This document shows, in pieces, positions 33,359-36,865 of a DNA stretch of 64,000 nucleotides; the first letter of the stretch is position 1; each line of letters begins with the position of its first letter. The notes beneath the pieces are model-generated. The model had not been told where the DNA came from. It worked only from the letters and a program-made list of their open reading frames with translations, and did not search any database. A program made the position numbers and the translations under genes. This stretch comes from Thermaerobacter sp. FW80 (GTDB lineage: Bacteria; Bacillota; Sulfobacillia; Thermaerobacterales; Thermaerobacteraceae). The stretch is from positions 2,393,245 to 2,457,244 of the forward strand of contig NZ_CP037895.1 in NCBI RefSeq assembly GCF_004634385.1. Reading direction: 5' to 3'.

Positions 33359-35035
33359 ATGCGCGAGGGGGATGCGGCCATGGGGAGCCTGCGCATCGAG
33401 GTGCCCGAGCGGTACAACTTCGCCCGCGACACCGTGGACCGCTGGGCCCAGGACGCCGACCGCCGCGCCATGCTCTGGGTCGACGACGACGGCACCGGTC
33501 ACCCCTTCACCTTCCGCCACTTCGCCCAGCGCTCGCGCCGGGTGGCGGGCCTGTTACGGTCCCTGGGCGTGGGCCGGGGGGACCGGGTGGTGGTCGTGCT
33601 CGGCCGGGAGGTGGCGTGGTGGGAGGTCATGCTGGGGCTCATCCGCCTGGGCGCCATCCCCGCGCCGGGCACCACCCTGCTGACCGCCCGCGACCTGCTC
33701 TACCGCATCCAGCGTACCGAGGCGGTGGCGGTGATCACCGACGCCGAGGGGGCCGCCCGCGTCGACGCGGTCCGCGACCAGTGCCCGTCCCTGCGGGTGG
33801 GCATCGTGGTGGGCGGGACGCGGCCGGGCTGGATCGGCTACGAGGAGGCGGTGGCCGCCGCGCCGGCCGACGAGGGCGAGGTCACCCGGGCCGACGATCC
33901 CATGTTGATCTACTTCACCTCGGGCACGACCGGGTATCCGAAGATGGTGCTGCACGACCACAGCTACCCCCTCGGCCATCGCGTGACGGGCGAGCTGTGG
34001 TGCGACCTCAAGCCCGGGGATCTGCACTGGAACGTATCCGACACCGGTTGGGCCAAGGCGGCCTGGTCCAGCCTGTGCGGCCCGTGGGTGGCGGGGGCCG
34101 CGGTGATGGTGGACCGCAAGCCGGGGAAGTTCGACCCGCAGCGCACCCTGGCCCTGATCCAGCGGCACCGGCCCACCAGCCTCTGCGCGCCGCCCACCGT
34201 CTACCGGCTCCTGGTGCTGGAGCCCCTGGACCGGTACGACCTCTCGAGCCTGCGTTCGTGCGTCTCCGCCGGCGAACCCCTGAACCCCGAGGTCATCCAC
34301 ACCTGGCGGGAGGCGACGGGCGTCACCATCCGCGACGGGTACGGCCAGACGGAGACGGTCTGCATGGTCGCCAACTGGCCCGGCCTGCCGGTCAAGCCGG
34401 GTTCCATGGGCACGCCGGCCCCCCACGCCGAGGTGGCCATCGTCGACGAGCAGGGTCGGGTGCTGCCGCCGGGGCGGGAGGGCGACATCGCCATCCGGGT
34501 GGAGCCCGAGCGCCCGGTGGGCCTCTTCCGCGAGTACTGGAAGGACCCCGAGGGCACCGCGGCGCGGCGCGTGGGGCCGTGGTACATCACCGGCGACCGC
34601 GGCATCGTCGACGAGGACGGCTACTTCTGGTTCGTGGGCCGGGCCGACGACGTGATCATCAGCGCCGGCTACCGCATCGGCCCCTTCGAGGTGGAGAGCG
34701 CCCTGGTCGAGCACCCCGCGGTGGCCGAGGCGGCCGTGGTGGCCAGCCCCGATCCCGTGCGGGGCAGCATCGTCAAGGCCTTCGTCGTCCTGGCGCCCGG
34801 CTACGAGCCCAGCGACGCCCTGGCCGTCGAGCTGCAGGAGCACGTCAAGCGGGCCACCGCCCCCTACAAGTACCCGCGCGAGATCGAGTTCGTGCCCGAC
34901 CTGCCCAAGACCATCTCCGGCAAGATCCGCCGGGTCGAACTCCGGGAGCGGGAGCGCCGGCGCAAGGCGCAGGCGGCGGCCGGCGGCCCTGCGAGGGCGG
35001 GCCAGCCCGCGGACGAGCCCGGCGCGCAGGGCTAG
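33359..35035 (+). CDS. AMP-forming acyl-CoA synthetase (medium-chain / AcsM-like)
   Basis: 558 residues. It activates a carboxylic acid as acyl-AMP and transfers it to CoA. The ATP loop YFTSGTTGYPKMV, the GYGQTETVCMVANWPGLPVK motif, the hinge region GDRGIVDEDGYFWFVGRADD and IISAGYRIGPFEVE, and the catalytic Lys in PKTISGKIRR are intact. The overall pattern (LHWNVSDTGWAKAAWSSLCG) fits the medium-chain acyl-CoA synthetase branch rather than acetyl-CoA synthetase, but the substrate is inferred. ATG at 33359 follows GGGAG. A second ATG seven codons later also has a good site, so the exact start is open. It is divergent from gdhA and ends before a 40-bp palindrome. Confidence 0.88.
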   Translation: MREGDAAMGSLRIEVPERYNFARDTVDRWAQDADRRAMLWVDDDGTGHPFTFRHFAQRSRRVAGLLRSLGVGRGDRVVVVLGREVAWWEVMLGLIRLGAIPAPGTTLLTARDLLYRIQRTEAVAVITDAEGAARVDAVRDQCPSLRVGIVVGGTRPGWIGYEEAVAAAPADEGEVTRADDPMLIYFTSGTTGYPKMVLHDHSYPLGHRVTGELWCDLKPGDLHWNVSDTGWAKAAWSSLCGPWVAGAAVMVDRKPGKFDPQRTLALIQRHRPTSLCAPPTVYRLLVLEPLDRYDLSSLRSCVSAGEPLNPEVIHTWREATGVTIRDGYGQTETVCMVANWPGLPVKPGSMGTPAPHAEVAIVDEQGRVLPPGREGDIAIRVEPERPVGLFREYWKDPEGTAARRVGPWYITGDRGIVDEDGYFWFVGRADDVIISAGYRIGPFEVESALVEHPAVAEAAVVASPDPVRGSIVKAFVVLAPGYEPSDALAVELQEHVKRATAPYKYPREIEFVPDLPKTISGKIRRVELRERERRRKAQAAAGGPARAGQPADEPGAQG

Positions 35036-35165
35036 GGCGGCCGGCCCGCTCCCCTGTGCGCCCCTCCCCGGGCAGGACGCCGCGTGGGGACCGCTGTCGC
35101 CGGGGGCCGCGGCGGCGGGTCGTGGGCGCCCGCCGCCGCGGCCCTTCGCCCGATGCCGTGTCCCG

Positions 35166-35205
35166 GGCCGGGGGCCGGTTCGTCCGGACGAACCGGCCCC
35201 CGGCC
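35166..35205. terminator. Perfect 40-bp palindrome between convergent genes, built on two inverted 12-mers
   Basis: Arms 35166-35185 and 35186-35205 are exact reverse complements. The inner 12 bases of each arm are the dispersed word GCCGGTTCGTCC. The palindrome lies between the stops of the acyl-CoA synthetase (35035) and patatin (35226) genes, the position of a bidirectional terminator, though no T tract follows on either strand. Confidence 0.6.
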
Positions 35206-35225: not shown

Positions 35226-36194
35226 TCAGACGGCCAGCGGCCCGGCCTGGCCCCGGAACGCCTGCTTGTACCGCCCGAAGTCCCACCGCCGGAAGAACCG
35301 GGTGGCCGCCTCCCGGCCGGCCTCGTAGAGCCGGCGCCGCGTGGTCAGGTCCAGCTCGAAGTCGGTGGTCCGCACCCCCAGGGTGGGGACCGCGATGGTG
35401 CGGGCGGCCGTGTGGGCGTTGGCCAGCTCCTCCCGGGCCTCCAGGGCGGTGCTGATCAGCGCCACCAGGTAGCCGAGGGGTCCGTCGAAGGGCACGGCCT
35501 GGTCGACCGGGTCGGCGAGGCGAAAGCCGAAGGTCGGCCAGGGCGGCACGCCCTCCACGTCGAACAGCCACACCGGGAAGTTGGCCACCAGCCCGCCGTC
35601 CACCAGCAGGCTGGTCGCCGGTCCCGTCGGCGTCGGGTAGACCAGCGGGACCGGCTCGTAGAAGTAGGGCAGCGCCGCGCTCATGCGCACGGCCCGGGCC
35701 ACGGGGAAGTCGCCGGGCTCGAGCCCGTACGCGGGGAGGTCCCGCGGCAGCACCACCATGCGCCGGCGGGTGACGTCCGCCGCCACCACCTGGAGGCGGT
35801 AGCGGAAGCGCGGGTCCTCGCCGGCCAGGGCGGGCGGCAGCTCCAGGTCGCGGAAGACCCGGACCCCCTTGCGCGCCAGCAGGTCCTCCAGCCACGCCTC
35901 CAGCGCCTTGCCCTCGTAGATCCCGTTCTCCAAGAGCAGGCTCAGCAGGCCGCCGGCCAGCGGGATGCGGTCCAGGGCGTCCCGGTCGCGGAACCGGCGG
36001 AAGTCGACGGTCTCCATCAGCTGGCGCATCTCCGCCGGCGTGTAGCCCGCAGCCCGCAGGGCGGCGACGATGGCGCCGGCGGAGGTCCCGCCCAGGTTGA
36101 CCCAGCGATAGCCGCGCTCCTCGGCCACCTCCAACGCCCCCACCAGGGCGATGACCCGCACCCCGCCCCCGGAGAGGACGGCATCGGCATTCAC
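35226..36194 (-). CDS. Patatin-like phospholipase / acyl hydrolase
   Basis: 322 residues. The N-terminus VNADAVLSGGGVRVIALVGA gives the oxyanion loop (GGGxR). The nucleophile motif is GGTSAGAIVAALRAAG and the dyad Asp lies in LLVDGGLVANFPVWLF. These three together define bacterial patatins. No signal peptide is visible, so it is probably a cytoplasmic or membrane-associated lipid hydrolase. GTG at 36192-36194 is chosen, after a GGGGGG ribosome-binding site. The longer ATG frame adds an Arg-rich, non-family segment. The gene stands alone on its strand. Confidence 0.88.
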   Translation of the reverse strand: MNADAVLSGGGVRVIALVGALEVAEERGYRWVNLGGTSAGAIVAALRAAGYTPAEMRQLMETVDFRRFRDRDALDRIPLAGGLLSLLLENGIYEGKALEAWLEDLLARKGVRVFRDLELPPALAGEDPRFRYRLQVVAADVTRRRMVVLPRDLPAYGLEPGDFPVARAVRMSAALPYFYEPVPLVYPTPTGPATSLLVDGGLVANFPVWLFDVEGVPPWPTFGFRLADPVDQAVPFDGPLGYLVALISTALEAREELANAHTAARTIAVPTLGVRTTDFELDLTTRRRLYEAGREAATRFFRRWDFGRYKQAFRGQAGPLAV

Positions 36195-36865
36195 GGGCAA
36201 CCCCCCTCGCGTCGCGCTGCGCTCCCACCCGTCCCGCCGCCGTCGCGACCGCGGCACCGCGACGGGGGGCGGGACCCCTGGGCCACCCTATGCCGGAGCC
36301 GGCCGAGCCGGTGACCCCACCGGTGCAGGCCACCGCAGGGGCGCTCGCGCCGTCCAGCCTCGGGCCACCGCGGGCGCGCTCGTGCAGTCCAGCCCCAGGC
36401 CGCCGGGGGCACGCGCGCAGTCCAGTCCCGGGCCGCCGACGGACCCCGCCTCCACCGATGCAGGCCGCCGCCAGGATCGCCCCCGCAGGTGCAGGCCGCC
36501 GCGGACGCCCGCCACCCGCGGTGCACGCCGCCGGGATCACCCCCGATGGGGCAGGCCGCCACCGGGACCGCGCTCCCGCCGGTGCGCGCCGCCGCAGGGA
36601 CCGCCCCCGCCGGTCCAGCCGGCCGCCGGGATCGCCCCTGCCGGTGCAGGCCGCCGTCCGGACCGCTCCCCGCTGGTCCACGCCACCGCCGCCGGGATCC
36701 CCGCTGCCGGCACCGCCCCCGCCGGTGCACGGCACCGCAGGGATCGCGCCTCCGCCGGTCGGCCCATGCCCGCCGGCCGGGGGGCGAACCCGGCCCGCCG
36801 GCCCGCGGGCCGGGTGAACGGCCCACGGGCCGGAAAAGCTAACCCACGGCCAGGAGGTGACCGCG
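36195..36865. repeat. Non-coding region with two minisatellite families upstream of gerA
   Basis: From 36352 to about 36445 a unit of about 34 bp beginning GTCCAGCC(C/T)CGGGCC is present three times. From about 36456 to 36765 a looser unit related to CCGGTGCAGGCCGCCG followed by GGATCGCCCC recurs about nine or ten times with variable length (30-40 bp). All six frames give only low-complexity Gly/Ala/Pro/Arg peptides. The gerA ribosome-binding site AGGAGG is at 36852-36857. Confidence 0.65.

Follow-up and report, generated by a model that had tools for sequence, protein, structure and literature searches.

Does a perfect 40-bp palindrome, which joins two inverted copies of an abundant genomic word between two convergent genes, serve to end their transcripts, and would such a role depend on the word itself? 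The palindrome lies in a 64,000-nucleotide stretch of the Thermaerobacter sp. FW80 genome (hereafter the window, always at its full length), and a preliminary description had proposed that such inverted pairs also act as terminators, as in bacteria with DNA uptake sequences. The 3.04-Mb genome of the window (G000) was examined together with those of three congeners, G001, G002 (T. marianensis) and G003. Motifs were counted over the whole genome, gene-context statistics were drawn from 60 evenly spaced 20-kb stretches and hairpin statistics from about 40% of the genome; genes were called with a home-made codon-usage caller.

A perfect palindrome between two convergent genes

The segment 35166-35205 is identical to its reverse complement; its arms measure 20 nt without a spacer (half by half, GGCCGGGGGCCGGTTCGTCC|GGACGAACCGGCCCCCGGCC), and two copies of the dispersed 12-mer GGACGAACCGGC touch head-to-head at its centre, exactly as first described. 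The stop codons of the flanking acyl-CoA synthetase and patatin genes, whose assignment agrees with Pfam, face each other over a 190-bp gap. About 20 bp to the left of the palindrome, this gap also contains another perfect hairpin, which had been overlooked. The features of the junction are the following:

33359-35035, plus strand: acyl-CoA synthetase gene (AMP-binding, Pfam), stop 150 nt left of the palindrome centre
35104-35144, no strand: second perfect GC-rich hairpin lacking T tracts and the word, 16-bp arms with a 9-nt gap between them
35166-35205, no strand: perfect 40-bp palindrome, in RNA form an 18-pair stem with a CCGG loop (RNA fold)
35166-35173, no strand: outer 8 bp of the left arm, beyond the word, perfect complement of 35198-35205
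35174-35185, minus strand: first copy of the word, left arm
35186-35197, plus strand: second copy of the word, right arm
35198-35205, no strand: outer 8 bp of the right arm, beyond the word
35226-36257, minus strand: patatin-like phospholipase gene (Pfam), stop 40 nt right of the palindrome centre

The predicted RNA hairpin is very stable (-42.7 kcal/mol, z -7.3). For independent bases at this GC content, the expected number of 40-bp palindromes is 5.6e-6 per window and 2.7e-4 per genome; across this genome, however, long perfect hairpins are far commoner than under this null. The preliminary description was also right that T tracts are missing: none was found on either side of the palindrome and a terminator scan of the gap gave no match, so that a canonical Rho-independent terminator, for which the GC-rich hairpin but not the T tract is present, was rejected.

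The symmetry does not stop at the edges of the word. Eight further base pairs are complementary past each 12-mer, with a chance of 9.5e-5, and this outer symmetry exceeds that of all 21 other inverted pairs of the word found in the four Thermaerobacter genomes. Since this symmetry extends over 8 bp outside each word, we regard the copies as probably the two arms of a single hairpin rather than separate acquisitions: two independent gains of the word would leave the outer complementarity unexplained, whereas copying from arm to arm would account for it. We infer that the second copy may have been made, or kept identical, through hairpin-templated repair or inverted duplication.

At the equivalent junction, the palindrome is absent from all three congeners examined, in which the gap measures about 50-140 bp; over the genus the gap varies from about 50 to 190 bp and is not alignable. 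A conserved element of the acyl-CoA synthetase/patatin junction was rejected on these grounds. A near-word, CGACGAACCGGCC, found at the G003 junction, was considered as the ancestral single copy, and the alignment is unable to place it. The 18-bp core of the palindrome gave 15 single matches in unrelated organisms (mostly actinobacteria, also Rhizobium, one archaeon and others) among 84,980 species genomes; within this collection, from which near relatives of the window may be left out, its spread is uninformative.

Hairpins without T tracts at gene ends

Perfect hairpins with arms of at least 12 exceed the numbers obtained with shuffles in convergent gaps (18 vs 0.5), tandem gaps (74 vs 2.0), divergent gaps (8 vs 0.6) and well-scored genes (51 vs 7.0). 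Their density falls from 0.58 per kb in convergent gaps to 0.50 in tandem gaps, 0.16 in divergent gaps and 0.06 in genes, and T. marianensis displays the same ranking (0.69, 0.37, 0.18 and 0.03 per kb, respectively). More than half of them (64/113) are located within 150 nt of a stop codon. Hairpins with a T tail are rare, 14 being counted in 1.26 Mb, and a T-rich side occurs in just 3 of the 180 perfect hairpins of the sample. In this genome, gene ends seem to be marked by long hairpins devoid of U tracts, a class into which the palindrome fits by its length, its stability and its position.

We therefore favor, with a probability of roughly 0.55, a reading of the sequence in which the palindrome is one of these genus-wide gene-end hairpins and most likely acts on both convergent transcripts, either by a U-less (I-shaped) ending of transcription or by stabilising the RNA 3' ends. 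The hairpin at 35104-35144 would work together with it.

Two observations speak against a function, namely that perfect hairpins are above chance even within genes and divergent gaps and that the palindrome is not conserved at the junction of the three congeners. The first implies that inverted duplication or repair may have generated some members of the class as by-products. The palindrome itself could then be neutral and roleless, having arisen by inverted duplication or quasi-palindrome repair within a GC-rich gap subject to drift, as the variable length and poor alignability of this gap would also suggest. We hold this to be unlikely, given that in two species the density of such hairpins is far higher at gene ends than inside genes or divergent gaps.

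A gene-end hairpin of the kind we favor has its closest parallel in the I-shaped (U-less) intrinsic terminators proposed for mycobacteria, a shape said to predominate within 50 bp of the stop in M. tuberculosis (PMC12288462); one such terminator, downstream of tsaD, was tested by reporter in mycobacteria (PMC5335608). Such U-less termination is nevertheless disputed, one study cited in these sources finding the U tract to be required (PMC5335608, PMC12288462). Like these terminators, the palindrome is a long and stable GC-rich hairpin devoid of a U tract, situated shortly after stop codons in a GC-rich genome and belonging to a class enriched at gene 3' ends. It differs from them in that Thermaerobacter is of an unrelated phylum and in that it stands between convergent genes, with full symmetry and a dispersed word in its arms. 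Furthermore, its centre is 150 nt from one stop and 40 nt from the other, so that on one side it lies beyond the quoted 50 bp.

A dispersed word resembling DNA uptake sequences

The word GGACGAACCGGC occurs 14 times in the window, where 0.1 copy is expected, at positions 2977, 4442, 11772, 18421, 18706, 19676, 26830, 35174, 35186, 44976, 48186, 51170, 52901 and 59871. Genome-wide, 525 copies are present (267 on the plus and 258 on the minus strand) as compared with 3 for the reversed control, and the three congeners contain 274, 429 and 280 copies. Outside the genus, 33 copies were counted in a sister genus of the family and 0-7 in the 56 other genomes searched; the abundance of the word is restricted to a single genus, Thermaerobacter. 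Small samples of relatives from other genera, too small for exclusion, gave no comparable dominant word.

Among the 12-mers of the 1.2-Mb sample, it is the most strongly over-represented (199 copies vs 3.5 expected), and its single-mismatch forms drop steeply, the commonest having 42 copies and the rest fewer than 20. The copies are spread with a density per 20 kb that is near Poisson. While 137 of the 199 sampled copies are within called genes, 61 are intergenic. Because the window overlaps two of the sampled stretches, a few intergenic copies enter some of the tallies twice. At aligned congener positions, the word is intact in 11 of 29 cases vs 66 of 377 for composition-matched controls (P 0.01). 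With respect to replication, 35 intergenic copies are leading and 27 lagging, and 76 coding copies are leading and 61 lagging; a Chi- or KOPS-like polar word was rejected on account of this weak orientation. A regulator half-site explaining every copy was likewise rejected, the copies being too numerous and over two-thirds of them lying in called genes.

This pattern has the appearance of an uptake sequence. Like DNA uptake sequences (DUS/USS), the word exists in hundreds of near-exact copies on both strands, both genic and intergenic, with little replication polarity, a restriction to one clade and a steep one-mismatch drop. In addition, the genus possesses competence machinery, with open ComEC and ComEA frames, and this genome has a type IV pilus-like cluster (L194 5438-17198, that is G000:C1:1675438-1687198) encoding two PF00437 ATPases and one protein whose N-terminus looks prepilin-like by inspection. 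It differs from the known uptake sequences by its phylum, by its unrelated sequence and by its lower density: 525 copies are present in 3.04 Mb, whereas N. meningitidis MC58 has 1,935 and H. influenzae 1,471 (PMC1852404). No paper connecting Thermaerobacter with an uptake sequence was found in the collection searched.

From these sequence patterns, we consider it possible, at close to an even chance, that GGACGAACCGGC functions as an uptake sequence in a Bacillota, beyond the Neisseriaceae and Pasteurellaceae, and that it would have been hardly co-opted for hairpins because separate T-less gene-end hairpins already exist, the palindrome then being a rare meeting point of the two. In a deep-branching Bacillota, the word is an uptake-sequence candidate that can be tested. 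The small neighbouring genes of the pilus-like cluster could hold minor pilins, and a receptor recognising the word may be sought there.

Inverted pairs of the word

The preliminary description took its idea from bacteria with uptake sequences. In the uptake-sequence terminators of Neisseria and Pasteurellaceae, as in the palindrome, a hairpin between convergent genes is formed by two inverted copies of a word that is both abundant and specific to its clade. Transposed to Thermaerobacter, the idea is that inverted uptake pairs are systematically co-opted as terminators, with the palindrome among them. Pairs were searched with a 9-mer core of the word at spacings within 30 nt. The genome has 7 inverted pairs (5 head-to-head and 2 tail-to-tail) and 11 same-orientation pairs, about 4 of each being expected by chance, and the excess of inverted over same-orientation close pairs that was sought genome-wide is therefore absent. 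In N. meningitidis Z2491, by comparison, pairs within 10 nt number 226 in the +- and 5 in the -+ arrangement, with zero in the same orientation (PMC1852404).

The location of the pairs differs as well. The inverted pairs were to be checked for clustering at gene ends, and 16 of the 22 found in the four Thermaerobacter genomes, some of which are mutually orthologous, are inside called genes, against 3 of 231 in N. meningitidis (PMC1852404). The density of the word in convergent gaps does not exceed that in genes (0.13 vs 0.14 per kb), and the word is carried by just 2 of the 180 perfect hairpins of the sample, or about 1%, whereas in Neisseria 55% of terminators contain an uptake word and in Pasteurellaceae 16-29% (PMC1852404). 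Finally, the palindrome is deprived of the A/T tails of these terminators. On the other side, the word does resemble an uptake word, and all three intergenic inverted pairs of the genome are downstream of a stop, with centres 25-150 nt away, one of them having 18-bp arms. All in all, a terminator of the Neisseria type appears distinctly improbable for the palindrome, and the use of inverted word pairs as terminators fails as a general rule in Thermaerobacter. What stands of the original proposal is that the word behaves in an uptake-like manner and that the palindrome, among the gene-end hairpins, occupies the position of a bidirectional terminator; its generalisation to inverted pairs does not. 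The gene-end hairpin at this junction is most likely built on the genus word incidentally, and it is not evidence for a general recruitment of the word for termination.

That the word is abundant and its pairs rare suggests that a word can become common without automatic co-option. Two traits that are coupled in the well-studied uptake-sequence species, an uptake-like word and inverted-pair terminators, come apart here.

The pair with 18-bp arms is a tail-to-tail pair (L037 1497-1537, also L093 12047-12087) forming a perfect stem just after a stop codon. Of the structures in this genome, it comes nearest to an uptake-word terminator, likewise without a T tract.

The preliminary description would have taken a genome devoid of other inverted pairs as unfavorable. 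A few such pairs do exist, and those that abut exactly head-to-head number 3 vs 0.064 expected, the sole spacing class in excess. T. marianensis has 2 of them, G001 and G003 have none, and 2 of the 5 abutting sites of the genus are inside called genes. Such pairs form a small unexplained excess, compatible with the co-option of uptake pairs discussed above and also with a different proposal, in which the abutting form GGTTCGTCCGGACGAACC would be a symmetric site on double-strand DNA for a dimeric protein, such as an operator, distinct from the single word. The persistence of one abutting pair in the tgt-yajC gap of two species despite diverged flanks would agree with such a site. The palindrome, however, is found between two stops and not at a promoter, a promoter-like sequence having been looked for at the site and not found, and the intragenic sites and the two congeners devoid of any also run counter to it; we regard an operator as very improbable.

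The tgt-yajC palindrome is located at L034 1501-1518 in the genome of the window and at L151 1501-1518 in T. marianensis. Two other repeated sequences were seen in the samples. A second over-represented word, GGAGGAACTGGC, which is two positions off the main word, is present at 8 copies per 200 kb in the G003 sample (L204-L213) and may be a dialect of the main word or simply Glu-Glu-Leu-Ala codons. A CRISPR-like repeat containing GTGAGGATTGAAAC is present in about 26 copies in the 1.2-Mb G000 sample (L065-L124).
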